A stretch of 64,000 bases of DNA, from the IMG/VR virus record IMGVR_UViG_3300023179_000071, positions 17,877-81,876 of that record. One strand, given 5' to 3'. Shown one piece after another: positions 4,820 through 50,935 of this stretch. The translations under genes were made by a program, and so were the position numbers. Numbering within the stretch: position 1 is the first letter of the stretch; every line of letters starts with the position of its first letter. Source of the DNA: a virus. The notes beneath the pieces were generated by a model. It was not told the DNA's origin, ran no database searches, and saw nothing but the letters and a program-made list of their open reading frames with translations.

Positions 4820-4852
4820 ATGGGGTATAAGTAGTTAGTAAAAGGATTTTTT

Positions 4853-7800: not shown

Positions 7801-9472
7801 GGGAAATAATGTACAAAATCAAATAGGAGACAATACATCGACTCAGAGAAATGCTCCTGTTAGAGTAGGTAGCGCAACAGATACACAGTGGGAAAATATT
7901 TATGCTGGAGGCAACAGTTCATCTGCTACCCGTTTAGGAGCAATTATAACAATCTCATCTCAACCTACAGGAGTAGAGTCAAGAAATGGAACAGCTTCAT
8001 TTAGTGTAGCTGCAAATATTACATCAGGAGCATCGTTATCATACCAGTGGCAAGTTAGCTCAAACACAGGATCTTCTTTCTCTGATATTATCGGAGCAAC
8101 CTCAACAACTCTTAATTTATCAAGTCTAAATAGTGGATTTAATAGTTATCGATATCGCTGCATAGTGTCTGGATCTCAAGAAGCCTATCCGTTAGCTTCT
8201 AGTAGTACAGTCTTAACAGAGCGTAGCGCAACAGTATGGTATAGAGGCACGGCCGCAACAGACGGAGCTATTCCCGGTACTGTTACAGCATGGACGGAGT
8301 GGAATTATACAAGTGATTCTTGGAGATATAATTCTACTAGTGTTCGTAGAACTTCATCTGCTACAGGTGCGTTTGCTAAAACTAATGGAACCACACTGAA
8401 ACAAATGGTACGATGTGGACCCAATACATTTGCATTTTTACTTTCTGATGGTAATGTATGGTCTACTAGCTCATCGAGCTTTTATGATTCTCTTGGGGGA
8501 ACAGTACCTACATTTACCGCACCAAATCCAACCGGAGAGACTATAGTTAAGATTATTGGTAACTATGGAGTATATAGCACTAGTAGCGTGTATTCAAGAG
8601 CATTCTTATGGGGCCTTAGCAGTAGTGGTAAGTTGTACGCATTAACGTATAATTGGAATGGTACCGGATATGGCTCATGGATTCGTATAGGATCAAATTT
8701 ATTATTCTCTGATGCTGCTGCTATCCAATTTACTGGAACATATTATCCAACAGTGCTGGCAATCTCAGCTACTGATGGCACACTATACGGATGGGGAGAC
8801 CAAAGACTCATTTCTGCTTCAACTACTAGTCCAGGAGCTATGTCATCTATCGACACAGCTCCTGTTAGAATTAATACAGATACATGGTCAGCAGTAGCTG
8901 GTAATAATGGAGGATTTTTTGGTATTAAGAGCGATGGTGCGGTATATCGTATTGTTGGGTTATGGAGTGGAGGCACAGTAAGCGGGTTAAACGGTGGAAC
9001 TACTACATCGTTTACTACCGGTACATTATCCTCATGGTCTGGTGGTTATGTTGTTCCTGTCTTAGTAGATAATAGTACTGCTTATACAAAATTGGCTGCA
9101 AATGGAACTATGCTTATAGGATACGATATCAATAATAAATTACATATTAATTCTAATTTCTCTACTGCTAGAAACTTACCAACTGGCTGGAATAATATTA
9201 CAGAAATTATACCGGGTTCTAATACAGCAGCTCAAGGCACTCTAATTATGACAGATAATTATACTAGCGCTAATAATATTGCTATGATAACTGCTGGTAC
9301 TACGCCGGTGTATAACCAGTACGGAATTGCAGCTGGAACACTTTGGACTAATACCACCACATGGGGTACCGGATTAACAGCTCCATCAACTCCAATACCT
9401 ATCAGATCAGATTTCAAATATGCCACACCAGATCTATCCACTGGTTACTGGCTAGTACTAAAGGATGATTAA
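4853..9472 (+). CDS. Giant modular virion protein: FGE-like domain, Ig-like repeats and RCC1 propeller
   Basis: A 1539-residue protein starting at an ATG after AAAAGGA. Order of parts: Cys-bounded beta module (1-105); short Thr-Pro linker; a domain like the N-terminal part of FGE/SUMF1 proteins (about 125-285; WVEFLNSVAQYDDLNALW, YVSWSDLARYINWIHN, TTEDGSYPLYG); a linker of about 95 codons; three Ig-like repeats (390-680, each with YQW(Q/E)RS); an RCC1-type propeller (690-1035; blades such as YTWGNNSTGQLGL and YTWGDNSVGQLGIG); a fourth Ig-like repeat; and a degenerate second propeller to the end. The FGE-like part stops after ARFWL and lacks the rest of that fold. Its stop overlaps the next start (TAATG). 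Likely an exposed receptor-binding or decoration protein. Confidence 0.85.
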   Translation: MQEITVNTCECPFEVSAIIDLSDLVPGTVYTYKLSLMNAGNAVFHPSQGEFLADQTNDTLNVTIYLKDNPNNYYLINLELYDPYYNQTRRQIVCIRNMGTNNCGATQCTPTPTATPTRRPYILDKHLDIANYKISSSENKVFGASKSTITVGDWVEFLNSVAQYDDLNALWKPQMESDLNCGIKRTYDGFFYVYSIDGCDQDVFGCYPDDSEHANRTISYVSWSDLARYINWIHNDKPKGRQGPETTEDGSYPLYGNRYAAPGIPYRPGARFWLDTTTVIQACPITATPTNTPTPSVTIGLTPTATPTTTPTRTPTSSVTPPLSTPTPTQTSTTTATLSQTPTISITASITATPSKTPPNTPNATPTTTLTLTATPTNTPSNLATGIRITQHPDIDAFTVVGINKTISVLAVAVPNTITLLYQWQRSTDSGSSWSTISGATSSSYTITNTLLVNSGDKYRVVVSGIAPPGLNNPTPVVSNESTLSVSQAIITIVNHPSNVVTADVTASFSVSATINPSYCTLSYQWQRSTDGGLNFSTLSGATSSTLNLTGLTSASNGYVYRVVVSGNGGADSVTSNTAILSVTAPEISITSQPNNAVSVDASAIFSVSAIITNLSSPYTLFYQWERSIDSGLTFQTITGATSASYSISSVTAAANGYYYRVVITSNVGSSPATSNSAQLIVNDDYGALLVWGSNSNNQLNFSGSTTIPRFTTNNTRIYRSGSVGQNHALFINASGILEGYGINTLGQSSGSNTNQVLKVATKYNHNIIIKTETVSGNSLNRLYTWGSNLYGQCGQGVSSSFISSPLSISGDSNNYIDIATGENHSLAVRDNGMMVSCGRNDAGQLGIGNNNSQTSFVTVSGNVASVSCGQSHSAAINTNGLLYTWGNNSTGQLGLNDTSPRTSPVLVSGVNWTKVVCGQNFTAALNSNNELYTWGDNSVGQLGIGNTLSTGIPIQVSGTWHDISAGNLHMLGIQSDGTLWAWGNNVQNQIGDNTSTQRNAPVRVGSATDTQWENIYAGGNSSSATRLGAIITISSQPTGVESRNGTASFSVAANITSGASLSYQWQVSSNTGSSFSDIIGATSTTLNLSSLNSGFNSYRYRCIVSGSQEAYPLASSSTVLTERSATVWYRGTAATDGAIPGTVTAWTEWNYTSDSWRYNSTSVRRTSSATGAFAKTNGTTLKQMVRCGPNTFAFLLSDGNVWSTSSSSFYDSLGGTVPTFTAPNPTGETIVKIIGNYGVYSTSSVYSRAFLWGLSSSGKLYALTYNWNGTGYGSWIRIGSNLLFSDAAAIQFTGTYYPTVLAISATDGTLYGWGDQRLISASTTSPGAMSSIDTAPVRINTDTWSAVAGNNGGFFGIKSDGAVYRIVGLWSGGTVSGLNGGTTTSFTTGTLSSWSGGYVVPVLVDNSTAYTKLAANGTMLIGYDINNKLHINSNFSTARNLPTGWNNITEIIPGSNTAAQGTLIMTDNYTSANNIAMITAGTTPVYNQYGIAAGTLWTNTTTWGTGLTAPSTPIPIRSDFKYATPDLSTGYWLVLKDD
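5708..5994 (+). repeat. Mucin-like Thr/Pro low-complexity linker (coding)
   Basis: About 95 codons rich in Thr and Pro joining the FGE-like domain to the first Ig-like repeat of the 1539-residue virion protein. The opposite strand shows a Val/Gly-rich open frame here, which is only a shadow of the repeat. Confidence 0.9.
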
Positions 9473-12400
9473 TGAGAATAGCAGTAAACTATAATGATCT
9501 TATACAGTATCCGTTAACTATTTATAGAGTAGGCGGAGAATTTACATTACGAAATCCGTATGATCATAGCACTATTACTTTATCAATAGGGTATGGTGAT
9601 GGAAATGGTATTAATGTACCATTACAGGTTGGTACTATAGCATCTGAATTTACTAATTTTACATATTCATATGAAGATATTATTAAAATAGCTAAATTAG
9701 AAAATGCATATTATACACAATTAATATATGCTAGCTTAGAATTGGTAATGTTAGATGCCTATGGTAAAGTTGTAGCTTATCTAACTACTAATAATACTGG
9801 TGATCATAATCCTACATTAGTAGGTCCAGGATATCGTGCTACGATTGAGTTTGGTAGTTTGCCCGAGATTGATAGTTGTTATGGTCCAGAAGCATACTGG
9901 GTAATAGGAAAAAATGATAATAGTAGTGTTTTTAACAATATTTCTGCCTATAAAATTATACCACCAGAAATTATAGTTACTCCTACTCCTACACCCACAC
10001 AAACACCAACGGTCACTCCGTCAGTAACATATAGTACAACACCCACTCTAACTGCTACTAACACACAAACACCAACCAAAACACCCGCACCAACTCGCAC
10101 ACAAACTAGCACTCCAACAAGTTCTATTACTCCTACCCGCACACAAACAGGCACACCAACTCGTACTAGCACACTCACACGAACTCCTACTACAACAACA
10201 ACATTAACACAATCAACAACCCCAACACCAACCCCTACCGCTACTACAACCACCACTTTAACGGCTACGCAAACTTGCACTCCAACAGCAACCAGCACAC
10301 GCACACTTACTCCTAGTGTTACATCTACTACTACTCCTACTCCTAGTGTAACCAATACAAATACTCCAACTGTTACACGCACACCAACAGTAACACCCAC
10401 ACCCACAGCATTAGTATCAAATGTGTTAGTTTGGGGAGATAATTCATATGGTCAATTAGGAATGAGTTATCTGCTCAATGATAGATTTATTGATCCTCCG
10501 AGACTATCAGAACAAACTGTTTCAGCACTAGCTAACTACCAAAATATACTAAATTATAGAGATAATGGATCATCTGACTCTGTGCTTTTTGATGCTATTG
10601 CGCCAGGATCAAATTTTAGTGTTGGTATAGACTCTAGTGGCTCATTACATAGCGTGGGAGTAAATGCTTGGGGTCAACTAGGATTAGGTAATTTTGAAAG
10701 TAAATCAATGTTTACCCGTATTTCTGATTCTTCTCTGAATGGTGTAGTATTTAAACAGGTTAGTCTCGGAAATATGCACGCGGTAGCATTAGATTCTAAT
10801 GGTAATGCTTGGACTTGGGGTCGTAATTCTGATGGTCAGTTAGGAAATCATTATCTACCCAGACCTATTAATAGTATCACAACAATAGATGCTGATATTT
10901 CGCTATATGATCTTAAAATTAATTATGATGTTAGAGAAGAGTATTCTCTTAATGACGAAGTTATACTAGATTATTATAGTGGATCTATACACAAAACTAG
11001 CGTGGCCAAGATATGGGTTGCTCCAACATATGCTAGTGGAGAAACTAATATTAGAATACAGTGGGAAAATTACGAGGCTTTAGATTTTAGTATTATTCCT
11101 ACAATAGTATCCAAAACCAAAATTGATATTGATCCAGGATTATTGGCAAATCCAACACCTAAGCAGCTAAAAGTATACAAAGAGTATAGATATTGCATAG
11201 ATAACGATACTGTATTTTTTGCAACTCCTACACCAACTCCAACTATCAGTTATAGTGCCACCACAACACCAACACTAACATCTACTGTAACTCCATCTAC
11301 AACATCAACTTTAACAGCTACTCCTACTAATACTAGTACAACAACACTAACTCCTACTCCTACAGTTAGCCAGTCTCCATCTCCGTCAGCTTCGCCCGGT
11401 CAAACTCAAACGCCAACAGCAACCCCAACATCAACGGCCACTTTAACTGCTACCCCCACAACCACATTAACGTTGAGTGCTACCAGAACACAAACACCTA
11501 CCAATAGTCCCACACCATCCACTACAGTTAGTGTAACCCCAACTAGTTCAGTAACTCCAACTAATACTGGTACTGTTACTCCCACAATGACAGTAACTCC
11601 TACAAAACAGTCTTTCCCAGTACTAACAATTTATGGCGATATTAGTTCAATTTTGACTAATGTTAATAAATCTAGCGTAATGGTTAATGTATATGATGAG
11701 AATTCTAGTCCACCATTATTATACAAAGTTAAGGTATTGGATGTTGAGTGGCTATCTAATTATGGTATTACAAAAATTCGTATCGACCATCCTGGATTGA
11801 ATAATCTAGATCCTAAGAGGATGAAATATGTCTCTATTATACGCTTTAGTAATGAAACCTCTTATGAATACGAAACATTCTCCAGAGTTTATGGTGGAGA
11901 ATCTCATACGATGGCTATGGATACTCAAGGCAGACTATTCGTTTGCGGAAGTAATAAGTATGGCCAATTAGGATTAGGATTGATCCAAGAACTTAATGCT
12001 GCAAAAGATATACTAATAGTACAAAATAAACCTGTGGTGCGTATTGGCTTAACAACAACAATGAGATTAGTTAATCCACCACCCGGTCGTGGCTATTGCT
12101 ATAATAGAGGTTTTAGCTGGAAGAAAATTTCGTTAGGCCGGTTCCATACTCTAGCTTTAGATGGTATGGGGCAAATGTGGGTGTGGGGAGATAATGACTT
12201 TGGCCAGTTAGGTTTAGGGGATAGCACAACTCTATTAGCTAAAGCTATTGTAGTACAAGAAAACTATCCGTCTGTTGGTAGTATAGGAGAAAGAGATCTT
12301 CCAGACAGAGCAAATGTTGTTATTCCATATGCACCATTACCAATTAAGATGTATGTATTGCAAGATAACTATTCAGATATACAAAATCAGAGTATAGAAA

Positions 12401-12996
12401 CAGATTACTGGATTGATATTGCTGCCGGTGCATACCATAATCTTGCTATCAAGAAAGAATTCTCAAATGTTACATCTTATGGTTCTTTATGGGCTTGGGG
12501 AGACAATACTTTTGGTCAATTAGCAAGAGTTAATACTTCTCCAAAAATTATTTCGTCTAATCCTGATGAGTTAGATATTGCTCAAGTAGATTTTGGATCT
12601 GTTAATAATGATAATAGTCGTAACTATTGGAGAAGAGTATATGCAAGTCGTATTACATCATTTGCGCTTAAATCTACAGATAATAAATTATATTCATGGG
12701 GAGAGAGCAATTTAGGACAAACAGGAAATGTTACTACTCGTACAGCATTAACTTCTTCTATTAGAAATATTCCTTCTGTAGTGAATTTGCCCACTATTCC
12801 TTTTGAATTACCAACTAATGCTAACGGTCCATGGGGTACTATTAATATTAGTGGAAATATAGATCAGATAGATAATATTGGTATAGGACATTTGGCCAAT
12901 CATATGTTAGTGATTCCAAATAGACTATTTCCAACACCAACTCCGACTCCTAGTGTGACAGCATCCCAAACGCCAACACCGTCACCTAGTGCATAA
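9472..12996 (+). CDS. Giant virion protein with RCC1 repeats and three Thr/Pro linkers
   Basis: 1174 residues, start ATG overlapping the preceding TAA and preceded by AAAGGA at good spacing. Residues 1-165 are a beta-rich N-terminal domain. Then come a Thr/Pro linker of about 144 codons, RCC1-type blades (LVWGDNSYGQLGM, NAWGQLGLGNFES, WTWGRNSDGQLGN), a second linker of about 128 codons, and further blades (FVCGSNKYGQLGLG, WVWGDNDFGQLGLG, WAWGDNTFGQLA, YSWGESNLGQTG). A short Thr-Pro tail ends it. The second linker interrupts the propeller, so the blades may form one sheet around an inserted loop. RCC1 folds are protein- or ligand-binding propellers. Use in adhesion is inferred from the company it keeps. 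Confidence 0.85.
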   Translation: MRIAVNYNDLIQYPLTIYRVGGEFTLRNPYDHSTITLSIGYGDGNGINVPLQVGTIASEFTNFTYSYEDIIKIAKLENAYYTQLIYASLELVMLDAYGKVVAYLTTNNTGDHNPTLVGPGYRATIEFGSLPEIDSCYGPEAYWVIGKNDNSSVFNNISAYKIIPPEIIVTPTPTPTQTPTVTPSVTYSTTPTLTATNTQTPTKTPAPTRTQTSTPTSSITPTRTQTGTPTRTSTLTRTPTTTTTLTQSTTPTPTPTATTTTTLTATQTCTPTATSTRTLTPSVTSTTTPTPSVTNTNTPTVTRTPTVTPTPTALVSNVLVWGDNSYGQLGMSYLLNDRFIDPPRLSEQTVSALANYQNILNYRDNGSSDSVLFDAIAPGSNFSVGIDSSGSLHSVGVNAWGQLGLGNFESKSMFTRISDSSLNGVVFKQVSLGNMHAVALDSNGNAWTWGRNSDGQLGNHYLPRPINSITTIDADISLYDLKINYDVREEYSLNDEVILDYYSGSIHKTSVAKIWVAPTYASGETNIRIQWENYEALDFSIIPTIVSKTKIDIDPGLLANPTPKQLKVYKEYRYCIDNDTVFFATPTPTPTISYSATTTPTLTSTVTPSTTSTLTATPTNTSTTTLTPTPTVSQSPSPSASPGQTQTPTATPTSTATLTATPTTTLTLSATRTQTPTNSPTPSTTVSVTPTSSVTPTNTGTVTPTMTVTPTKQSFPVLTIYGDISSILTNVNKSSVMVNVYDENSSPPLLYKVKVLDVEWLSNYGITKIRIDHPGLNNLDPKRMKYVSIIRFSNETSYEYETFSRVYGGESHTMAMDTQGRLFVCGSNKYGQLGLGLIQELNAAKDILIVQNKPVVRIGLTTTMRLVNPPPGRGYCYNRGFSWKKISLGRFHTLALDGMGQMWVWGDNDFGQLGLGDSTTLLAKAIVVQENYPSVGSIGERDLPDRANVVIPYAPLPIKMYVLQDNYSDIQNQSIETDYWIDIAAGAYHNLAIKKEFSNVTSYGSLWAWGDNTFGQLARVNTSPKIISSNPDELDIAQVDFGSVNNDNSRNYWRRVYASRITSFALKSTDNKLYSWGESNLGQTGNVTTRTALTSSIRNIPSVVNLPTIPFELPTNANGPWGTINISGNIDQIDNIGIGHLANHMLVIPNRLFPTPTPTPSVTASQTPTPSPSA
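9979..10410 (+). repeat. Mucin-like Thr/Pro low-complexity linker (coding)
   Basis: About 144 codons of Thr-X-Thr-Pro pattern, the longest such linker in the window, between the N-terminal domain and the first RCC1 blades of the 1174-residue protein. The reverse strand carries a 152-codon Val-rich shadow frame. Confidence 0.9.
11224..11608 (+). repeat. Mucin-like Thr/Pro low-complexity linker (coding)
   Basis: About 128 codons rich in Thr, Pro and Ser that interrupt the RCC1-blade region of the 1174-residue virion protein. Its position inside a propeller-like region is odd, because such linkers usually lie between domains. Confidence 0.9.
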
Positions 12997-39656: not shown

Positions 39657-39684
39657 ATTATAACTGGGGCTCCTACAGTGTCAA
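39657..39684 (-). promoter_or_regulatory. Consensus sigma70 promoter for ssb
   Basis: On the minus strand: -35 TTGACA at 39684-39679, 16-base spacer, -10 TATAAT at 39662-39657. Both hexamers are perfect matches to the sigma70 consensus. The -35 box contains the TGA stop of the polymerase C-terminal gene. Expected transcription start near 39650 gives a leader of about 35 bases before the ssb ATG. Confidence 0.85.
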
Positions 39685-41306
39685 GATTCCGGTATAAAAC
39701 ATTTCTCGACAATTAGGCCACTTCCAGCTTTCTTTGATTTGGTGCCGATAAACACTAAAACCTCATTCTCTTTTAATAGGTCTTTAAATTCATCATATTG
39801 TTCCGGAAACATAACTACAGAGTCAAGACCACCTGAGCTATCAAATATCTCTAAAAAAGACATACTAGCTCCTTTATTTTTACCTTGCTTAGTTTTTGTA
39901 ATACTAAGCCTACTAATTTCACCCATAATGGCTACTTTTTTGCCACTATTAACAGTATGGAATTCTTTACATGAAACTAGATTTGACTCATAATTTTGCA
40001 TATAGCAATCTGTTTTCGTGCATGTCAATGGGATGCCGAGTAGTCCCGCTTCTGTTTCTGCTATCCATTGCATATTATCTTTTAATGCATATGGTGGATT
40101 GTCTATACTTGAAATGAATTCCTGTACAAGCGACTGTCTTTTCTTTGTAACTTTGCAATCGGTTAACAGTCTAATAAATATATCTCTAAATTTAATACTA
40201 CTTATATCTATATTTTTGTCTACTATTTGTGCTATCTCTTTTTTTGTCAACTTATTTAACATTTCTAGATAGAATAATAATTCTGTTCTAGGTATCTTAT
40301 ACTCATCAAATGCCCCAACAGAGACTATAGCTTTTGCTGCTGCACTATTAATATTAACCATTAATCTACAAAATGTTGGTATTATTCCAGTAATATTTTT
40401 ATTTATTAAAGTTAAATGTAGTTTTGCTATTGTGTCGTATACAGAATCTCCAACACCCTTTATATTTGTAATTCCAAAATGGATAGTATTATCAATAATG
40501 GCAAACTCTTTATTCATATGTTTAAATTTTGGTAATAAAACATCTATATTCATAGAGTTAGCATTATGAATAAGTTCTTTGATTTCCTGATGAGGATCTA
40601 TTTTATCTTTTGCAAATCTCAGATAAGAAACAAAGAATATTTGAGGGAAGTGCGCCTTGGCATATGCTGATAGATAGCCATTGATAGCATAACTAACAGC
40701 ATGGCTTTTATTAAATGAATACCTTTGGCTTTTCTCAATCCACCCGAATATTTCTTCTGCTTCATGTTCTGTAACAATATGTTTATCATTGCAACCATTG
40801 ATAAAAATTTTCTTGAGCTTTGCCATTTCTTCTGGCTTCTTTTTTCCAATAGCTTTTCTCAACATGTCAGCTTCTTGCAGATCAAAGCCTGCTAGCTCTT
40901 GTGCTATTTGCATACTTTGTTCTTGATATACCATTTCACCATATGTAGTTTCTAGTATATTTTTTAGACTTGGATTATAGTAATCTATACTTTCTTGTCC
41001 ATTTTTTCTATCTATAAAATGATTACTAACGCTTTTACCATCCCTGATAGCCTCCAGACATCCTGGCCTCATGATACTAATAAGGCCAGCTAGTTGTTCT
41101 ATATTTTCCGGCTTGAGTTTTTTGGCCATACTTTGCCCAAGTCTTGACTCTAACTGGAAACATCCCTTGGTATTACCATCGGATATTAATTTCCAGGTTC
41201 TGGAACAATCAAGAGGAATGGTGTTAACATCAAAATCCATTAACTCAATATTATTAGAGTCAACTGGAAATCTGCACCCGCAATCGAACTGATAGTATTT
41301 GCTCAT
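39681..41306 (-). CDS. dnaE: DNA polymerase III alpha subunit, C-terminal part (split DnaE)
   Basis: 541 residues, ATGA overlap with the exonuclease gene upstream. It begins MSKYYQFDCGCRFPV and then carries the DnaE part after the palm: IPLDCSRTWKLISDGNTKG and CFQLES (49-54), IMRPGCLEAIRDGKS, VYQEQSMQIAQELAGFDLQEAD (127-147), LRKAIGKKK, YSFNKSHAVSYAINGY (196-211). The last 90 residues resemble the OB-fold with strand VAIMGEISRLSITKTKQGK. All three catalytic Asp residues lie in the N-terminal ORF at 44675-46549. The combined length, 624 plus 541 residues, equals one normal DnaE. The two polypeptides must assemble to form an active enzyme. Confidence 0.9.
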   Translation of the reverse strand: MSKYYQFDCGCRFPVDSNNIELMDFDVNTIPLDCSRTWKLISDGNTKGCFQLESRLGQSMAKKLKPENIEQLAGLISIMRPGCLEAIRDGKSVSNHFIDRKNGQESIDYYNPSLKNILETTYGEMVYQEQSMQIAQELAGFDLQEADMLRKAIGKKKPEEMAKLKKIFINGCNDKHIVTEHEAEEIFGWIEKSQRYSFNKSHAVSYAINGYLSAYAKAHFPQIFFVSYLRFAKDKIDPHQEIKELIHNANSMNIDVLLPKFKHMNKEFAIIDNTIHFGITNIKGVGDSVYDTIAKLHLTLINKNITGIIPTFCRLMVNINSAAAKAIVSVGAFDEYKIPRTELLFYLEMLNKLTKKEIAQIVDKNIDISSIKFRDIFIRLLTDCKVTKKRQSLVQEFISSIDNPPYALKDNMQWIAETEAGLLGIPLTCTKTDCYMQNYESNLVSCKEFHTVNSGKKVAIMGEISRLSITKTKQGKNKGASMSFLEIFDSSGGLDSVVMFPEQYDEFKDLLKENEVLVFIGTKSKKAGSGLIVEKCFIPES

Positions 41307-41992
41307 TGTGTTACAAAAGAGTCTCTAAATTTTATTTTCTTTGATAGATTTCTATGTAGTTTTAGGAAACGGATAAGTAGTTCAGCACAATCATTGACAT
41401 CTTTCAATGCATCATGGGCGCCAGCCTTACTAATACCCATATAGTCTCTAATATTATCTAGTGTGAGATTTTTGATATCGCTATTGCTTTCGAACCAATA
41501 AAATAGCAGATTCATCATATCCAAAGTATCTCTTGGATAAAATAAACTAGATCCATTTTCGCTATTGATATATCCAAATTTACGACTAAATCTTTCCACA
41601 ATTTTCATGTCAAATCTCAATATATTATATCCAGAAGCAACAGGTGCAGAAAACATACTTTTTTTACTTCTGTTCAAATGATATATTTCTAGATACTGAG
41701 AAAACATTGACCATGCTTGTTGTTGAGACATTGCATTCTGCCAAGACTTAAGAATATCTTCTTTACTGCAAGCTCTAACCTTTGCGTGGAAATCTAGTAT
41801 ATCGCTATCTTGATAGGTATATTCTGGATCGTTTTCTAATTTTTCTGGTTTAACATGAATATTAAATGCTGAATCTTTAATAATAGATAAATTATATGGA
41901 TCTACTATGATTGCGGCTATCTGAACAGGGCTGCAAGTATCTGTATCTGTTCCATCTGTTTCAAAGTCAAATATACATATTTTGTTTTTCAT
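41303..41992 (-). CDS. dnaQ: DnaQ-like 3'-5' proofreading exonuclease
   Basis: 229 residues. Exo I site FDFETDG (Asp9 and Glu11) and a late HDALKDVNDCAELLIRFLK segment (His near 192 and Asp near 198, the Exo III-epsilon site). The central region has PVASGYNILRFDMKIVERF, the Exo II part. It fits the proofreading (epsilon) subunit of a replicase, working with the split DnaE in this gene cluster. Overlaps the polymerase part downstream by ATGA, so the two are likely co-translated. Confidence 0.9.
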   Translation of the reverse strand: MKNKICIFDFETDGTDTDTCSPVQIAAIIVDPYNLSIIKDSAFNIHVKPEKLENDPEYTYQDSDILDFHAKVRACSKEDILKSWQNAMSQQQAWSMFSQYLEIYHLNRSKKSMFSAPVASGYNILRFDMKIVERFSRKFGYINSENGSSLFYPRDTLDMMNLLFYWFESNSDIKNLTLDNIRDYMGISKAGAHDALKDVNDCAELLIRFLKLHRNLSKKIKFRDSFVTQ

Positions 41993-44493
41993 ATGGTTAT
42001 GCCAGTTTCGTCCTTTAGTGCTTCAAGAATAGAGAATGGATTATTATAGTATATATGTAGATTAAGCTGATGTCCACAAAATATCCTACCAAGGCTATCA
42101 CGAACCCTGACACACCCTATAAGGTAGTTGACAGACATGGGTCTGTCCAGAGTAATTTTTGTAATATTTAGTTTTGAATCATATATAACGGATTCAGCAT
42201 TAAAAGTTGCTGTTTGCTGATAAATATTGTCTATTTCTTCTTTATTTGGATCGGGATTAGATGATCTTACCCAATAGCTAATTTTAACAGCTCCTGGTAA
42301 TATTTTGCCAGTCACATTATATGGTACAATTAACGTTTGTCTATCTGGTTTATACTCATAAGATGAACTAGTTTCTGTAATTTTTAATTCTCTAGAAAAA
42401 TATGTATAGCATACAATACGATCTATAGGGATATTGATATAATGATACCCCCTGTTTACGCTATTCATATAGTATGATTCAAAAGCGTTAAGCATCTTGA
42501 CATATCCGTCTGTGGATAAAGTGCCGTTCGATAATTTGTATAACGGCTGCCCACTTGATGCATCAAAGTATATTTTGCCTTGTAACTGTGTATTGAAAAT
42601 ATCTCTTAATAATCTAAAAGAATCTCCTGTAATTTTTTCATACCTTATTGCATCAGGGGAATTAGTGTTACCAGAAGTATCAGGCTTACCATTTCTGATA
42701 GCATCATATAGCTCTTCTAGTTCTATTTTTGTAAAACCAAAAAAGTATTTTGTAAGTTCTGGATCAGTTTTTTCATTAAGAAAATATTCGATTAGTTGTT
42801 TAGCGTATGTGCCTATATTATAGGTAATATATCTACGACCACCAGCAGCAAAAGAATCTACAACAACATAGCAAGCGTATAGCCATTCTGTAAGTTCCGG
42901 GGCTATTGCTGGCTCATTATTCCATCCATTGCACGTAGGTATAGGATCAGACGATTCCTGTGCTTTAATTCTAATATATGGATCAACAAAATTTTGAGCA
43001 AATGCACTTTTACCTTGTGATAACTCGTACCGTATAAGATATGGTGGGGTCATGAATAGGTCTTCTATTAGAACACGATTATTCTCATCTACAGGCCATC
43101 CTACGGTTTTATAGATAATTTTTGGATCTGTTGGGTCTTTTTCATTTTTTACAGTATAGAAAAACCCACTATTCGGAGACATAAAGATTTCTAATAGCTT
43201 TTCATTAGTTTCGAAAGTATTAAATGGTTCGCAAAAACCATCATATAACCAAAATCTATTTGCTGTTACATACTTAATGGGTTGGTTCTTCTCATCTGTT
43301 CTAAAAAAATATACTGGGGCACTTCTATCATAAAAATTTATAGGTATAGGATTATCTGGAGAAGACGTGTGTAAATTGAATGCATCTCCAGGCAACAGCT
43401 TATAGGAACTCACTTCTTCAAAGTACGGAGGAAAATCACCTTTCACGAAAACTTCTCTTGCGCTCAATTTTTCTACAGGAGTATCTAAATTAAATTCATC
43501 ATCTGGATTTTCTGTGAAGTGCAATCCTCCGAATAGAATTATATCTAATAAATTTTTCTTACCAGTAGCTAACATCATGCCTTTTAAGGTAAAGGGGTCC
43601 ATTTTGTTGGGATATGGACCACCCATATAGTCGATTCCAGCTAGAGGTGAATCAAATACAAAATTTGTACCGTATTGTTCTTTAGCAGAGAATACCGTTG
43701 CTCTTTTATCTCCTATAAAATCTGTGAATGTAAATGTTTGTATACTAGGATAAACGGCCGGCACTGTACTCTTAAGTTCTCTGTACTTTCTATGCATACA
43801 TAAAGCATTTACTGGGCAACATCCCAAATCTATCTGGTATGTGTCAACTTTTTTATATACCAACCTCTCCCTATTGAAAGGATCATATAGAGTAAAATAA
43901 TCTCCTAATGATAATTGTCTAAATGTAGTAAATTCTTGTGGTATAAGATCGCCAGACCAATCTGAAAAAACTTCTCTTCCACTACTAATTCTGGCTATTA
44001 TAGTTTTGGGGCCAGTATCAACAGTTAGAAATGCTTCTCCAGATGGATCAGTATAGTATAGTAAAACCATTTCCCTATTAACTTCTACAATTTTAGAACC
44101 AAGATTTTGAAATGTTCCAAAACAGTATGACTTTTCACTAGTTTGTGAAATAATAGTGAAGTATAATCCAATATTTAGATCTATAGGCTTGCTTTGATTT
44201 ATTGGAACGTCTTTTTTATTCGGTAAGGTAAGATATTTGGTTGATTCGGGTAAGCCCATTTGTCCTTCTATATTGGACCCCCACATCCATATACTTTTAT
44301 CTTCCTTTATGGCAACAGAATGATTTGCTCCTACCAGCGCTTCTACCCATGGGATAGCGTCGTATTGAGGTATTCCAGTAATTACCTTGTGTGTATCTGG
44401 AGTATCTTCTATGCTTCCTATACCCAATTGGCCATATTGATTATCGCCAGATGAGTATAGATCTCCATTCTGTATATAGAGTATATGTCCCAT
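41989..44493 (-). CDS. RCC1-repeat protein between the two halves of DnaE
   Basis: 834 residues; GTAGGA precedes the ATG. The first 130 residues contain RCC1-like blades (GDLYSSGDNQYGQLGIGS and SIWMWGSNIEGQMGL, with a degenerate SYCFGTFQNLG). The remainder is large, beta-rich and aromatic, with a YYTDPSGEAFLTVDTGP segment and a Cys pair near CCPVNALCMHRKY, and does not match replication proteins. The blades resemble those in the plus-strand virion proteins, so a virion or adhesion role seems most likely even though it sits in the replication cluster. It has no Thr-Pro linker. Ends with ATGA overlap into the exonuclease gene. Confidence 0.75.
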   Translation of the reverse strand: MGHILYIQNGDLYSSGDNQYGQLGIGSIEDTPDTHKVITGIPQYDAIPWVEALVGANHSVAIKEDKSIWMWGSNIEGQMGLPESTKYLTLPNKKDVPINQSKPIDLNIGLYFTIISQTSEKSYCFGTFQNLGSKIVEVNREMVLLYYTDPSGEAFLTVDTGPKTIIARISSGREVFSDWSGDLIPQEFTTFRQLSLGDYFTLYDPFNRERLVYKKVDTYQIDLGCCPVNALCMHRKYRELKSTVPAVYPSIQTFTFTDFIGDKRATVFSAKEQYGTNFVFDSPLAGIDYMGGPYPNKMDPFTLKGMMLATGKKNLLDIILFGGLHFTENPDDEFNLDTPVEKLSAREVFVKGDFPPYFEEVSSYKLLPGDAFNLHTSSPDNPIPINFYDRSAPVYFFRTDEKNQPIKYVTANRFWLYDGFCEPFNTFETNEKLLEIFMSPNSGFFYTVKNEKDPTDPKIIYKTVGWPVDENNRVLIEDLFMTPPYLIRYELSQGKSAFAQNFVDPYIRIKAQESSDPIPTCNGWNNEPAIAPELTEWLYACYVVVDSFAAGGRRYITYNIGTYAKQLIEYFLNEKTDPELTKYFFGFTKIELEELYDAIRNGKPDTSGNTNSPDAIRYEKITGDSFRLLRDIFNTQLQGKIYFDASSGQPLYKLSNGTLSTDGYVKMLNAFESYYMNSVNRGYHYINIPIDRIVCYTYFSRELKITETSSSYEYKPDRQTLIVPYNVTGKILPGAVKISYWVRSSNPDPNKEEIDNIYQQTATFNAESVIYDSKLNITKITLDRPMSVNYLIGCVRVRDSLGRIFCGHQLNLHIYYNNPFSILEALKDETGITI

Positions 44494-44520: not shown

Positions 44521-44703
44521 CTATTTAATAGTTACCGTAGCATTATCTGGAATAAAAACCTTCTCACCAGTGCTTGCGATAACAGCATTTAGTTTTCTGC
44601 AACAAGAAACCCTAACTTCTGCTGTTTTTCTATATTCTGTATTATTATAGACAAATACTGTATCAATTGTAATATTAGCAAATGTTGTTTGAAGCTCCGA
44701 CAT
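44521..44703 (-). CDS. Small conserved phage protein with Cys-Cys motif
   Basis: 60 residues; the ATG overlaps the 3' end of the polymerase N-terminal gene by 29 bases and has AAGGGT seven bases upstream. It contains VFVYNNTEYRKTAEVRVSCCRKLNAVI and a final VFIPDNATVTIK strand, in the style of small phage proteins that have an N-x-x-Y-x-K strand followed by a Cys-Cys turn. No function can be given. Possibly a small structural or regulatory protein. Confidence 0.6.
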   Translation of the reverse strand: MSELQTTFANITIDTVFVYNNTEYRKTAEVRVSCCRKLNAVIASTGEKVFIPDNATVTIK

Positions 44704-46549
44704 AATTTTTACCCTTTAATAAAGATTGGATACACATGATTTTATCTAACATACCGATACCTAAAATATCAAACTTAACTATACCTAATGATTCTAAATC
44801 TTGCATTTCCATTCCTGCAATACTGTTACCAGTCTTAGAATCATACACCATAGGACAAATACCATCTAAATTGTGTGCTGAAATTGCGATACCAGCAGCG
44901 TGTTTAGATTGATTTGATTTGGTGCCTTCTAATCTAATAGCTTGTTCAAAGCGTTTGGCAAATAGTCCCGTGATTGTTCCATCCTCTTTAATTTCGCACC
45001 AATCTTTAAATTTATCTGGAGTATTCTCTAAAGCCCATTGTATAATAGATGACTCTCCTCTATCTTCTTTCATTTCTTGTAAATCATCTGCTATTTTAGC
45101 TTCATCAGGAATATGTTTAGTTATTTGATTCATTTCTTCATATGATAACCCACCATAAACTCTCAGAACTTCCTTGAGCGCTCCTCGTCCTTTCATTGTA
45201 TTAAAAGTTATCATTTGAGATACTTTACTATCTCCATATTTACTCTTTATATATGAGATAACACTATCTCTGGTGGTCATAGGAACGTCTATATCTATAT
45301 CTGGCATAGAAACTCTATCGCCAGTGTTTCTTCCTGCATTATAAAATCTTTCAAAAAGAAGATCATATTTTATGGGATCAATATTTGTAATTTCTAATAA
45401 ATATGAAACTAGACATCCAGCAGCAGATCCTCTACCCGGACCAGGAAGCCAAGAATTACTTCTAATAAAATTGACTATATCTTGCACAATAAGAAAGTAT
45501 CCTGATAATTTAGCTCCTTGTAAAACAGAAAGTTCCTGTTTAATTCTATCTGCATAAATTTTTTGATCTTCTTCTGAAGCTTTGGTAAAGCCACGCTTTC
45601 TCCATCCGTCTCTACATAATTGTCTCAAGTATTCATCTTCATTTTCAATAAATTCTGGTAATTGTGGCCTATTAAGAATATTGTAATCTTCGCACATATC
45701 AGATACTAGATTAGTATTTGCTAATTCTTCTTGAGTATGCAATGATTCCATTTCGTCACCAGATAAGATATAAAAATTATCAGATTTAAAAAAACAACCC
45801 AATGGAACACTCTCATTGTTAATAATCTTTTTATTGATTTCTGGAAATGTTGTTTTGAGTGTATTGCATAATAAAACTCTTTGGTCTATTGCGTCTTCTT
45901 TATTTGCGTAGTGAGCATCTGGCGTTGCTATAATTTTGATACTATGTTTTTTGGACAGCGATCTCATAATATCTGTTAAGACTGTTTGAAATGGCAAATA
46001 CTCTCTGTCCATTAGTTGGGCTTCTAGGCAGATATTTTCAGAACCAAAGATAGATTTTAATTGATCTATTAATAGAGATGCTCTAGTCAAATCCGAACCA
46101 TTACCAACCGCATCGGCAACATTTGACCCGAGGTGACCAGTAACACAGATCAAGCCTTGCAGATCAATGTCCTCAAGCTCGTTTACGCTGATCCTGGGCT
46201 TTCTATAAAAACGCCGCGGGTCGTTTGACAAAGAAACTAAACTGATCAGATTCTTCCATCCCTGTGTATTTTTGGCCAAAACCAGCATGTGTGATAAATG
46301 ACCGTTTTCTTTGCTTTGATTGGTCGAAACATCATCACAAATGTATAGCTCACAACCAAGAATAGGTTTAATGCTATTCTTTTTCATGGCCTGATAAAAA
46401 GATACAGCACCAGAGATAGATCCATGATCAGTTATAGCACAAGCAGATACTCCAATATCTAAACATCTTTGAGCAAGCTGTTCTGGTTTTGAGAGGCCGT
46501 CTAATAAACTGTAATGACTGTGTACATGCAATGGAGTATACTTATTCAT
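44675..46549 (-). CDS. dnaE: DNA polymerase III alpha subunit, N-terminal part (split DnaE)
   Basis: 624 residues. The N-terminal PHP domain has LHVHSHYSLLDG (7-18), ITDHGSISGAV (39-49), ILGCELYI (Glu67), HLSHMLVLAKN (84-94) and a later ATPDAHYAN. The polymerase palm has GPGRGSAAGCLVSYLLEIT, LLFERFYNAGR, MPDIDIDVPM (two catalytic Asp) and VKFDILGIGMLDKI (third Asp). The frame then ends after a 20-residue tail. The remaining DnaE parts (fingers, beta-binding and OB regions) are encoded at 39681-41306. AGGA stands five bases before the ATG. Stop codon lies inside the start of the small gene downstream. Confidence 0.92.
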   Translation of the reverse strand: MNKYTPLHVHSHYSLLDGLSKPEQLAQRCLDIGVSACAITDHGSISGAVSFYQAMKKNSIKPILGCELYICDDVSTNQSKENGHLSHMLVLAKNTQGWKNLISLVSLSNDPRRFYRKPRISVNELEDIDLQGLICVTGHLGSNVADAVGNGSDLTRASLLIDQLKSIFGSENICLEAQLMDREYLPFQTVLTDIMRSLSKKHSIKIIATPDAHYANKEDAIDQRVLLCNTLKTTFPEINKKIINNESVPLGCFFKSDNFYILSGDEMESLHTQEELANTNLVSDMCEDYNILNRPQLPEFIENEDEYLRQLCRDGWRKRGFTKASEEDQKIYADRIKQELSVLQGAKLSGYFLIVQDIVNFIRSNSWLPGPGRGSAAGCLVSYLLEITNIDPIKYDLLFERFYNAGRNTGDRVSMPDIDIDVPMTTRDSVISYIKSKYGDSKVSQMITFNTMKGRGALKEVLRVYGGLSYEEMNQITKHIPDEAKIADDLQEMKEDRGESSIIQWALENTPDKFKDWCEIKEDGTITGLFAKRFEQAIRLEGTKSNQSKHAAGIAISAHNLDGICPMVYDSKTGNSIAGMEMQDLESLGIVKFDILGIGMLDKIMCIQSLLKGKNYVGASNNIC

Positions 46550-46559
46550 TTAAATCCTG

Positions 46560-47603
46560 TTATTCTGTGCTGCCTGGGGCTTTGTAGTGTCCTATATTAT
46601 GACCGGGAGCCGAGTATTCGTCAATAACCAAATCCATGCCTTTCAAATCAATATCGTGTTTAATTTGTTCGCACTTCGTCATCGTTGTGTGCTTGGCACA
46701 TGTTTGGTTATCTCTATATTCTTCTAATGGGTATATATGAGTATTGTCAAATGTAGTTTTACCGAAATGACATAGCTTGTTACACATCCAGCTTTTCTTT
46801 AATTGAGGTCTTGTTGTTTTCTTGATAACTTCGAATTTATTGCGTAACATTTCTTCTGTTTTTGGAATATCAGATTTATCGAAGAGTATACTGAATGGAC
46901 CGCCATCATTAATAAAAAAAATGGTAACAATTATATGATCATAGTCTGGATATAGTTGCTGTGCAGCATAGTGGTATATTCTTAATTGAGGATCTGTCTC
47001 TAGTTTTTCTTGGGTTTTTTCTTGACCAGTTGCCCAATCGAGCCTTCTCCCTGTTTTCCAGTCTACAATTTCTAGAGTATTATCATCTATTTTAGTAATA
47101 AGATCTATTGTTCCTTTCAATCCTAATGTACCACTGATTTCATTACCATTAAGATCATATTTATACTTTGCCCATTTTTTATCTATAGCTATATCAAAGT
47201 GCTGCTCTGGACACATAATAGATCTGTTGCGAGGATCAAACATACCATTATTGAATTCTATAGCTTTGTATACCCATTTCCTACAATCATCAAAATCTTT
47301 TTCGGTCCACTTATGGTGAGAGCACTTCTTACTATAGTAATTGTATACATCTCTAATAAGAACTTCTAGATCGTATTTTTTAGTTGGTATTTGCCCTAAT
47401 ATATCGTCATCGATATGGGTGTGTTTGTTTTGAATGCCCTGTTGTATAACTGCTAGTATCTCTAGTACTTTATGAACTATAGTCCCTTTATCTGCCTTCT
47501 GACCAGAAGGACTTCTCCAGCCTAATACATATTCCATAAAATATTGTTGCTCGCACATGGAATGAGTATTGTATGAAGAACTTCTGAAATATGTAATGAT
47601 AAT
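46560..47603 (-). CDS. Cas4/RecB-like PD-(D/E)XK exonuclease with probable ATT start
   Basis: The frame from the ATG at 47558 starts with MCEQQYFMEYVLGW, but the family usually has a conserved YFRSSS-type strand first. Reading upstream in the same frame gives IIITYFRSSSYNTHS before that Met, with a TGA stop one codon beyond. There is no ATG, GTG or TTG there. An SD match TGAGGTGA (47614-47607) stands six bases before an ATT at 47603, which I take as the start. The core has KADKGTIVHKVLEI, LEIVDWKTGRR (D-x-x-K nuclease site), QLRIYHYAAQQLYPDYD and late cysteines near CNKLCHFGK. Likely a RecB-like exonuclease for recombination or DNA processing. Confidence 0.7.
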   Translation of the reverse strand: MIITYFRSSSYNTHSMCEQQYFMEYVLGWRSPSGQKADKGTIVHKVLEILAVIQQGIQNKHTHIDDDILGQIPTKKYDLEVLIRDVYNYYSKKCSHHKWTEKDFDDCRKWVYKAIEFNNGMFDPRNRSIMCPEQHFDIAIDKKWAKYKYDLNGNEISGTLGLKGTIDLITKIDDNTLEIVDWKTGRRLDWATGQEKTQEKLETDPQLRIYHYAAQQLYPDYDHIIVTIFFINDGGPFSILFDKSDIPKTEEMLRNKFEVIKKTTRPQLKKSWMCNKLCHFGKTTFDNTHIYPLEEYRDNQTCAKHTTMTKCEQIKHDIDLKGMDLVIDEYSAPGHNIGHYKAPGSTE

Positions 47604-47606
47604 AAA

Positions 47607-47614
47607 TCACCTCA
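47607..47614 (-). promoter_or_regulatory. Strong Shine-Dalgarno for an ATT start
   Basis: TGAGGTGA, matching the 16S rRNA tail well, overlaps the TGA stop of the dNMP kinase. Its AGG ends at 47610, six bases before the ATT at 47603. The best-known ATT start is infC (IF3) in E. coli, so such starts exist but are rare. No standard start codon lies within the usual distance. Confidence 0.6.
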
Positions 47615-48349
47615 TTCGAATATGTTTTGAAAAATATTGTAAAGAGACATTGATTGTTCATATATTGACATATTCTCATTATCAATAATATGATCAAAAT
47701 TAGACCAATCATATCTATCTTCATCCAATATTACTTCACTAATATGATCAGACAAACCATACTTGTTTCTTTTTAGTCTGATGACCAATCCGTCAGCGCT
47801 ATGTATAGCATCTACCTCATTAGGAAATCTACAGTCTGTAATTAAAGCCAATTCGCTTTGATCGTTTAAAATCTTATTGATTGTTACTTCTGGCCATATA
47901 TTTGGTTTCATAGATCTAAAAATATCAGTCCCAACAACTTGCATAACTTCTCTAGCTGTGAGATATTTATTTTCCCAAAAGACATTGGTAATCTCATTTT
48001 TTTCTATGTCTGTACCATAACACTGAGCATACGTTAGTCCTAAAAGATCCATACAAATATTTTTCTTGAGTATATCAGCAAAACTATATAATTTAATATA
48101 TGGATTGAGTTTGGTAACCATATCAAGCACATCAGTGTCAAGAGTAGCTGTAGAGCTATTAATATAGTACTGATTAATATCAACAGTAATAGACGCTCCA
48201 TTATGCTTAATGATATCAATAGTACCTTGCTGATTGACTTTGGCCTTCTGGCATAAATTTTGATTGGCAAGATAAATACTATAAATAAAATTAGCCGATG
48301 TATTTTTTCCGGATTGTTTCTTTCCAGAAAAACCTATGATTTTAGTCAT
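47612..48349 (-). CDS. Deoxynucleoside monophosphate kinase
   Basis: 245 residues, ATGA overlap upstream. Near the N-terminus IIGFSGKKQSGKNTSANF is the P-loop with G-x-x-x-x-G-K-N/S-T. The later ALITDCRFPNEVDAI and VIRLKRN match the sequence around the substrate site of phage dNMP kinases such as T4 gp1, which pass phosphate from ATP to dNMPs. It belongs to the nucleotide-supply part of the minus-strand cluster. Confidence is high for a P-loop kinase, slightly lower for substrate. Confidence 0.82.
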   Translation of the reverse strand: MTKIIGFSGKKQSGKNTSANFIYSIYLANQNLCQKAKVNQQGTIDIIKHNGASITVDINQYYINSSTATLDTDVLDMVTKLNPYIKLYSFADILKKNICMDLLGLTYAQCYGTDIEKNEITNVFWENKYLTAREVMQVVGTDIFRSMKPNIWPEVTINKILNDQSELALITDCRFPNEVDAIHSADGLVIRLKRNKYGLSDHISEVILDEDRYDWSNFDHIIDNENMSIYEQSMSLYNIFQNIFE

Positions 48350-49500
48350 ATCTGCCTTTCCGTTAGTTTAGATAGCTCTGCTATAATAGTTTTATTATCC
48401 ATTTCTGCTATATCGCTAGTGATAAACTGTGGAGTGTATATATTATATGTTCTGGAACATTTTTTAGAAATTGTATTAGTTGCTTTGTGTCCAGCATCAT
48501 CATTATCTAATAATAATATCATTTGCATCGCTCCACTAGCATCAATTAACATTTTTTGAGTATCAGACATAGAAGAACCAAATATTGCTACGCTATTTCT
48601 GAATCCGCACTCTTCTAGTTTCCAAACGTTTCCTGGACTTTCAACTATTACTATAGTTCTAGACTCTCTGATATAATCTTTTGCATACCACATATTGTAT
48701 AGGTGGTTCTGTGTCTTAAAGCCAAAATTGTGTTTCCATTTAGAATATTTCCATTTATTATCTTCTGATGGGCACTCGTCATTTGGATTATGATAACTAC
48801 TGCATCTGATACATTTGCTATGTATACTACGACCAGTACATCCTACCATGTATTGATGTTCATTATCGTAGATAGGAGCAACTGCTCGTCCATACATTTC
48901 TTTACCTATTTTATCACACAAACCCACATCGTATTTATTCAGTATGTCTGTGCTAAATCCTCTATCAACAAAATATGCTGCTGGTATAACCAAACTTTGC
49001 CTAATATTACGTCGTGATATTTTTGGTAGATCGTCTTTTGGAGATGGGGTTATATTAGATACAAATGATGTAAACGTATTCTTTTCTACAGATTGTTTTG
49101 ATACTTTGACATTATCAAAATTATCCTTAAGCATTTTCTTCACAAAAGATAAAGTAGCAGCAAAGGAAACTGTTTCATCTCCATCTTTTAACCAGCCTGT
49201 TTGATTATGAGACAATACTCCTCTAATAAATCCTATAATAGATGACTTAAAAGTTTGCTCGCATCCGTGAGTTCGACATTTCCAATTACCTCTATAGTGA
49301 TCTCCATCTGGATATAAATTCAATGCTGACGGATTATCTCCCCCATGTATAGGGCACGACATTGATATCATCCTAGATGTTTGCTTATATTCTATACCAA
49401 GAGCATCTAAAACAGTATATATATTATCACAAATCTGATCACAGATTATCTTTAGTTCGTTTTGATTATACGAAACTGATTTCTTCATCATTATTTTCAT
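48346..49500 (-). CDS. dnaG: DNA primase, DnaG type
   Basis: 384 residues; three close Met starts are possible (49500, 49491 and 49488) with no clear SD, and I give the longest. It has a CHC2-like Zn finger (Cys49, His52, Cys75, Cys80 in SCPIHGG and KCRTHGCE). Residues about 180-280 are the catalytic core with another Cys-rich site near CIRCSSYHNPNDEC. A TOPRIM domain follows: TIVIVESPGNVWKLEECG and MILLLDNDDAGHKA (acidic D-x-D). It is shorter than cellular DnaG (about 580) and appears to lack its C-terminal helicase-binding domain. Overlaps the helicase gene by 35 bases. Confidence 0.9.
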   Translation of the reverse strand: MKIMMKKSVSYNQNELKIICDQICDNIYTVLDALGIEYKQTSRMISMSCPIHGGDNPSALNLYPDGDHYRGNWKCRTHGCEQTFKSSIIGFIRGVLSHNQTGWLKDGDETVSFAATLSFVKKMLKDNFDNVKVSKQSVEKNTFTSFVSNITPSPKDDLPKISRRNIRQSLVIPAAYFVDRGFSTDILNKYDVGLCDKIGKEMYGRAVAPIYDNEHQYMVGCTGRSIHSKCIRCSSYHNPNDECPSEDNKWKYSKWKHNFGFKTQNHLYNMWYAKDYIRESRTIVIVESPGNVWKLEECGFRNSVAIFGSSMSDTQKMLIDASGAMQMILLLDNDDAGHKATNTISKKCSRTYNIYTPQFITSDIAEMDNKTIIAELSKLTERQI

Positions 49501-50935
49501 CTATAACAAATCCATTGGATGGCTTTTCTTTATTTCCGCTACTAATAAGTTCTAATCTAGTTTTGCCTTCTGTAATTTTTGCACACCAGCCCTTCATATG
49601 ACAATTAATATAATCGTTATCATCTAATCCACCGCCGTGTCTACTGATTAATGGCACAAGCTTACGATTACCATTATTTGGTCCGTCCTCTGCTATCTCT
49701 TCATCAGACTTTCGTTTGAAAATAGTAAAGTTACTACATAGCCATATAATACGGTCAGAGCCGCTTGCTGTATCTGTGCTCTCTTTTGTTATACCGTCTC
49801 TATTTAGCTGCACAAATGCTACAATAGGGACTTTATATTTAGTAGCAAAGTTATGCAATGATGTCATCATAAAACCTAATACCTGATACTCTTTCATATC
49901 CTGAGATATGCCTGCGCTGTCCATAAGCTTCAAATAATCATAAAAAATTACACAGTCTTTAGCTGTGCCGTCTGGATTAAGTCCAACATCCTTAATAACC
50001 CATCTCCGCATTATAGCTAACTGTTCTTCGAATGATTTGCCAGCAATAGACTTATAAAATAATTTTGTTTGCTTGAGTTGCTCTACTGCTTCTGTAATCT
50101 TAGATTTTTTATCTATAGTTTGAGCAAATGCTCCTGTTTCTATATTATTGATTTCGATTTCTGTCATCATAGCTAAAACTCTATGCAAATGATCTTCTTT
50201 GGTCATTTCTGTATCCATATTTAATACAGGTATACTAAGCTTATTAGCTATATGAAATCCCATATTATCGGATAATAGAGTTTTACCAACCTTAGGTCTT
50301 GCCGCTATAACATTAACTGTGCTTTTTCTCAAACCTCCACCTATAGCTTGATCATAAATCTTAAATCCTGTCGAGATCCCGACCTGATCAACTTTATGTT
50401 CTTCTAGATATTTGATATATTCATCTAAATTCGTACCAATAGATTCTGGTCCGCTTTCGCTATCGTTAAGTTTATTTGTAAAATCAAATACGACATCTTC
50501 TGCTATTCCTAGTATTGATGTTATACTTTCTGATCCATTAACGTCTAGAATCTTATCCTGAGCTAGTTTAAGTTGTTTATGTAATAATCTAGCTATATCT
50601 AGCTTTCTGATTTTAGCAGCAAATTTTCTAATATTATCCAGACTAACCGGAAAATCCATTATTGCTTTAAGATGCTGTGCCTCTTCTTTTTTAGATAATA
50701 CATGAGCCAGGTCTAGTTCCTGAGCAGACGATATTATACAAGCGACATCTATATTTGTGGAGTGACCTTTCTCAAATAAATGTTTGAGGCATTTGTAAAT
50801 AATAATATTACTATCAATAGTAAAACATGTTTCTGATAATATATCAGCTACTTCGTAGAAAGCCTTATCAGAATACGAACAAATACCAGCCAATACGGCT
50901 CTTTCAGCCGCCGGATCACACAATATCATACTCAA
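49466..50935 (-). CDS. dnaB: Replicative DNA helicase, DnaB type
   Basis: 489 residues. N-terminal domain about 1-170. RecA-like motor: STGFKIYDQAIGGGLRKST, Walker A AARPKVGKT (211-219), NMDTEMTKE, Walker B CVIFYDYLKLM (about 325), and PIVAFVQLNRDG. The first codon may be TTG at 50935, which overlaps the upstream TGA (TTGA) and has AAGGA nine bases upstream; the ATG at 50929 would leave 15 bases. Works with the adjacent primase at the fork. Confidence 0.93.
   Translation of the reverse strand: MSMILCDPAAERAVLAGICSYSDKAFYEVADILSETCFTIDSNIIIYKCLKHLFEKGHSTNIDVACIISSAQELDLAHVLSKKEEAQHLKAIMDFPVSLDNIRKFAAKIRKLDIARLLHKQLKLAQDKILDVNGSESITSILGIAEDVVFDFTNKLNDSESGPESIGTNLDEYIKYLEEHKVDQVGISTGFKIYDQAIGGGLRKSTVNVIAARPKVGKTLLSDNMGFHIANKLSIPVLNMDTEMTKEDHLHRVLAMMTEIEINNIETGAFAQTIDKKSKITEAVEQLKQTKLFYKSIAGKSFEEQLAIMRRWVIKDVGLNPDGTAKDCVIFYDYLKLMDSAGISQDMKEYQVLGFMMTSLHNFATKYKVPIVAFVQLNRDGITKESTDTASGSDRIIWLCSNFTIFKRKSDEEIAEDGPNNGNRKLVPLISRHGGGLDDNDYINCHMKGWCAKITEGKTRLELISSGNKEKPSNGFVIDENNDEEISFV

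Follow-up and report, generated by a model that had tools for sequence, protein, structure and literature searches.

Evidence for an AUU start codon that changes in step with Shine-Dalgarno strength in a nuclease gene of uncultured phages

The window analysed here is a stretch of 64,000 nucleotides from an IMG/VR virus record (IMGVR_UViG_3300023179_000071, positions 17,877 to 81,876). Its minus strand carries a replication cluster in which a nuclease gene directly follows a kinase gene (Table 1), and the kinase/nuclease junction reads GAATGAGGTGATTTATTATCATTACATATTTCAGA. The kinase ends in GAA TGA, with the stop codon at 47614-47612, and the nuclease frame runs on the same strand through ATG AGG TGA, TTT, ATT (47603), ATC (47600), ATT (47597) and ACA TAT TTC AGA. 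A previous sequence-only reading had proposed that the nuclease starts at the ATT at 47603. The coordinates and sequence given there were right on recheck, including the statements that no ATG, GTG or TTG lies between the in-frame TGA and this ATT and that ATC and ATT follow it. The spacing of six bases given for the Shine-Dalgarno (SD) sequence holds from its GAGG core, whereas the string quoted for it, TGAGGTGA, ends 3 bases from the ATT. Elsewhere in the window, DNA polymerase III alpha is split into separate genes for the PHP/NTPase part (44675-46549) and the finger/HhH/OB part (39681-41306), which are separated by a long gene (41989-44493) and a gene for an RNase T-type exonuclease. The region 4835-12996 codes for virion proteins of very large size, which contain RCC1-like repeats and Hoc-like head domains.

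Table 1. Features at and around the start of the nuclease gene in the 64-kb window.
Feature	Coordinates	Strand	Basis
PD-(D/E)XK (Cas4/AddB/RecB-like) nuclease, 347 aa	46560..47603	-	Pfam PF12705; PHROG exonucleases
ATT start codon of the nuclease (strongly supported)	47601..47603	-	Aligned column holds only ATT, ATG, ATA, ATC or GTG in 143 homologs
Shine-Dalgarno GAGGTGA (six bases from GAGG core to ATT)	47607..47613	-	Sequence; anti-SD duplex energy -6.9 kcal/mol
In-frame TGA, closing the nuclease frame upstream and blocking a kinase-nuclease frameshift fusion	47607..47609	-	Translation
First canonical in-frame ATG (Met16), rejected as start	47556..47558	-	Met replaced in homologs; no SD
Deoxynucleoside monophosphate (dNMP) kinase, directly upstream of the nuclease	47612..48349	-	Pfam DNMK PF21448, E=1e-16
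DNA polymerase III alpha (PHP + NTPase part), downstream, ATG start	44675..46549	-	Pfam
Toprim primase, same replication cluster	48346..49500	-	Pfam Toprim
DnaB-like helicase, same replication cluster	49466..50935	-	Pfam DnaB

The PF12705 match (E=4e-18; 66.6 bits against a cut-off of 22) places the product in the PD-(D/E)XK superfamily. This match and a DWK motif are shared with nucleases of the Cas4/AddB/RecB kind, from which the phage protein differs in having no helicase domain. Four cysteines, one N-terminal (C17) and three C-terminal (C274, C278 and C311), are invariant in 57 homologs; their layout is that of the Fe-S Cas4/AddB nucleases, indicating a putative Fe-S cluster. The AlphaFold model (pLDDT 87.5, with the first ten residues less certain at about 61) has the Cas4-family protein ACE1 and AdnA as its closest matches, and no credible sequence relatives were found among solved structures. 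The Cas4 equivalog model TIGR00372 gave 28.6 bits against a cut-off of 65, and no cas genes were seen in the neighbouring genes examined. The label Cas4/RecB-like used in the previous reading is fair, but Cas4 as a name in itself does not suit this protein. In three relatives (L157 at 2998-4980, L158 and L159) an in-frame, intein-like insert, about 315 aa long and containing a LAGLIDADG domain, sits exactly inside the catalytic motif, between DWK and TG; its first residue is apparently Gly, not Cys or Ser, and it ends THN, followed by T. Two further nuclease relatives were binned in a Chitinophagia MAG (L222, RFVO01000077.1) and an Alphaproteobacteria MAG (L223, RFNS01000104.1). Both contigs are probably phage, and the nuclease of L222 starts with GTG.

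Relatives of the nuclease number in the hundreds in IMG/VR, and none was found among 50,697 records of cultured phages. The homolog set comprised 143 deduplicated IMG/VR sequences covering the nuclease start, down to about 52% pairwise identity; one further sequence (L345), with an ATG upstream of the alignment column of ATT 47603, was left out of the counts. In that column 75 homologs have ATT, 52 ATG, 8 ATA, 5 ATC and 3 GTG, with no other codon found (ATT, ATC and ATA are together referred to as ATH, or AUH in RNA). Thus, recognised start codons occupy the very column of the ATT in relatives. The nuclease gene of the window has no usable canonical in-frame start, as its first ATG would cost the conserved strand. 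The codon preceding the column is unconstrained, non-coding and a stop in some homologs, whereas those following it encode I-(I/V)-T-Y-(F/L)-R-S-S-S and are near-invariant at the protein level; therefore, coding begins at the column of ATT 47603. Among isoleucine codons in this column 85% are ATT, compared with 40% ATT, 45% ATA and 15% ATC elsewhere in the same genes. Isoleucine and methionine replace each other repeatedly here and valine occurs only as GTG, while many internal isoleucine columns accept GTH valine codons. Judging from the alignment, it is the codon rather than the amino acid that is kept. The restriction to Ile and Met alone is not decisive, because internal column 232 likewise holds only these two residues. 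The ATT is no chance occurrence, and translation of the nuclease from ATT 47603 is strongly supported by these comparisons; the case for it is stronger than could be known from the single sequence.

The start codon is accompanied by marked differences in the SD sequence. Pairing energy with the anti-SD was scored over the 22 bases before each start, and sites of -4.5 kcal/mol or better were counted as strong. The SD of the window nuclease ranks in the strongest class of this phage group, and none is found upstream of ATG 47558 (+2.6 kcal/mol). Mean energies were -6.4 kcal/mol for ATH nucleases and -2.3 kcal/mol for ATG nucleases, as against -3.4 to -3.9 kcal/mol for other ATG genes in the same contigs and -2.4 kcal/mol for random positions. 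Strong sites precede 95% of ATH nucleases, 12% of ATG nucleases, 27% of neighbouring genes and 17% of other ATGA-overlapped genes. The difference between ATH and ATG nucleases holds after clustering at 80% identity (-6.1 versus -2.25, p=6e-7) and at 90% identity (p=3e-12). A few ATG versions have a strong SD (L146, L358). This correlation suggests that SD strength may compensate for the weakness of the start.

In most relatives, the start codon overlaps the kinase stop. The junction is ATTATAA in 68 of 75 ATT genes, ATAA in six of eight ATA genes and ATGA in 33 of 52 ATG genes, and a single G-to-T change converts ATGATAA to ATTATAA. The overlap has been lost in the clade of the window (the window and L001-L004) and in L301/L302, where the kinase stop lies 4-11 bases before the start and ATT or ATA is nonetheless kept with a strong SD. 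The kinase/nuclease junction showed no conserved RNA structure that would support a coupling hairpin, and folding of the start region differs only slightly between start-codon classes. In L164 (2484-3014), L167, L171 and L070 (2312-3001), an HNH endonuclease gene, identified for L164 and L070 by PHROG matches, lies between kinase and nuclease. At these loci the kinase ends in the old SD and ATTATAA or ATTATAG (GCTATAA in L070), while the nuclease begins at a new ATG. In addition, L358 (1790-2040) retains the old nuclease beginning, ATT ATA ATT ACA TAT TTC AGA, fused to an HNH endonuclease fragment, after which the full nuclease restarts at an ATG with a strong SD. The strings left at these insertions are remnants of the ATT start.

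On a nuclease tree of 133 rows, built with the start column excluded, the start codon has switched at least 20 times and in both directions, with about half of the 20 switches on weakly supported branches. Among 10 independent switch pairs on well-supported branches, the SD moved with the start codon in about 8 and against it in 0.2. A two-way (two-rate) model was better than either irreversible model, by 5.6 and 9.1 lnL units, with ATH the more likely state at the root (0.85). No ATH start column was found in other genes within 10 kb (about 25 neighbours, up to about 100 sequences each); apparent ATT columns there lay one codon before an ATG or came from misaligned starts. It is thus established computationally where the nuclease starts, that this start is conserved, that it trades off with the SD and that it has switched repeatedly. 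The sequence-only reading had noted neither the trade-off and the switching nor the stop/start overlap with the kinase in relatives.

Several other explanations of the ATT have to be considered. Sequencing error is rejected as its origin, because more than 80 ATH sequences come from many independent metagenomes. The protein might instead start at ATG 47558, the first canonical start and the choice of a standard gene finder, with the upstream strand left untranslated. As the sequence-only reading had argued, this would delete a conserved strand, and the homologs do begin I-I-T-Y-F-R-S-S-S; relatives have ATG or GTG where the nuclease of the window has ATT 47603. Homologs starting at the methionine of MCEQQYF would have counted against that reading, but about 26 of the 143 have Leu (CTT/CTC/TTA/CTA), Phe or His in its place. 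Furthermore, in three ATH homologs (L017 with ATT, L028 and L135 with ATA) the first ATG, GTG or TTG is codon 121 and none lies upstream in frame; a non-canonical start is therefore unavoidable there, as a canonical one would cost one third of the protein. Together with the missing SD, these observations make an internal start highly improbable, and it is rejected. A fusion of kinase and nuclease by -1 frameshifting at the junction is equally hard to credit, even though the kinase frame reaches or passes the ATT in most relatives. The in-frame TGA at 47609-47607 stands between the kinase stop and the ATT, so that a frameshift could not reach the nuclease in the clade of the window, for which the fusion is rejected; A-TTA-TAA contains no slippery heptamer, and ATG or GTG occupies the site in relatives.

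Alternatively, the ATT may be a side effect of overlapping the kinase stop, since the G-to-T change in ATGATAA yields both ATT and the kinase stop TAA; the start codon itself would then be unselected, and tolerated because the SD is strong. The junction counts given above agree with such an origin. Nevertheless, the overlap is not the whole reason for the ATT, because the lineages with separated genes have retained ATT or ATA together with a strong SD, and ATT is preferred over the commoner isoleucine codon ATA, which leaves this explanation doubtful. The AUU start could also be regulatory in the manner of E. coli infC or Streptomyces sigR, with host IF3 or the IF3:ribosome ratio first repressing and then releasing the nuclease. 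IF3 does repress non-canonical starts (PMC2268962; PMC5472188), and ATH with a strong SD is conserved over deep divergence, with a root that is probably ATH. However, the ATH property is not essential, because plain ATG or GTG serves as the start in about 38% of relatives. IF3 (PF00707) was absent from 15 related contigs, some of them fragments, while control genomes gave matches; the product is not IF3 either, as infC-type autoregulation would have it. Ribosomal protein S21 was not found in the same 15 contigs, and there are no tRNAs in the 64-kb window. IF3 control of the nuclease start is possible by analogy, but on balance unlikely.

The preferred explanation is that a weak AUU start at 47603 is made usable by a strong, well-spaced SD, which is placed in or beside the end of the upstream dNMP-kinase gene. 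Initiation at the AUU would then run well below the AUG level and in step with translation of the kinase, and it is probable that the nuclease is made in this way, in modest, kinase-linked amounts. Both the low output and the linkage to kinase translation are inferred. Two modes of initiation may thus serve this gene: AUU, AUA or AUC with a strong SD, and AUG with almost no SD, re-initiated from the ATGA overlap, each predicted to give a modest output linked to the kinase. It may further be suggested, quite tentatively, that selection maintains the AUU/AUA/AUC start as a translational control element, which holds an autonomous Cas4/AddB-like nuclease at a low level or times it during infection, e.g., by sensing host IF3 or ribosome state. 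Such an element would be interchangeable with an SD-less, re-initiating AUG, and the gene would therefore hold an evolutionary record of two-way switching between two initiation modes.

An AUU start thus appears to be deeply conserved in a widespread lineage of uncultured phages, where it has been swapped with AUG about 20 times, the SD following. The relatives provide natural paired sequences for testing the trade-off of start codon, SD and stop/start overlap, and the same pairs could test whether phages use IF3-sensitive starts. With standard gene callers the nuclease would come out truncated, and in some relatives the first 120 residues would be lost. The literature searched contained no paper on AUU starts in phages.

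Bacterial genes almost never begin with AUU, and only a handful that do are known. E. coli infC, which encodes IF3, has an AUU start with an SD, lies in an operon and is autoregulated by IF3. The start of the phage nuclease resembles that of infC in combining AUU with an SD within an operon and in the conservation of a weak start. It differs in that the gene encodes a nuclease, not IF3, that no feedback partner was found in 15 related contigs, and that relatives freely exchange the codon for ATG, ATA, ATC or GTG. It also resembles the starts of Staphylococcus aureus cvfC1 (AUU), ccpN (AUA) and infC (AUA), which are conserved, have extended SDs and give about 10% of AUG output (PMC13009471). 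The likeness lies in a conserved AUU or AUA with an unusually strong SD, the attenuation having been measured in S. aureus; those are cellular genes, and repeated switching with SD change or an overlap with a kinase stop is not described in the available part of the report (PMC13009471). In Streptomyces, the GTC start of sigR is repressed by IF3, and there, too, a non-canonical start determines how much of a single protein is made from a cotranscribed operon, although codon and gene class differ and IF3 dependence is demonstrated for sigR (PMC5472188). An excess of IF3 in E. coli suppresses initiation at non-canonical codons, and re-initiation is inhibited more mildly with an SD (PMC2268962). 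Compensation of weaker starts by stronger SDs has been described in prokaryotes for GUG and UUG (Belinky et al., PMC5622118), and the weaker starts of the phage nuclease are likewise paired with stronger SDs. Whereas a single AUG-to-AUU switch was reconstructed among 61,358 AUG starts of cellular genomes (Belinky et al., PMC5622118), about 20 ATG/ATH switches have occurred in this one phage gene family.
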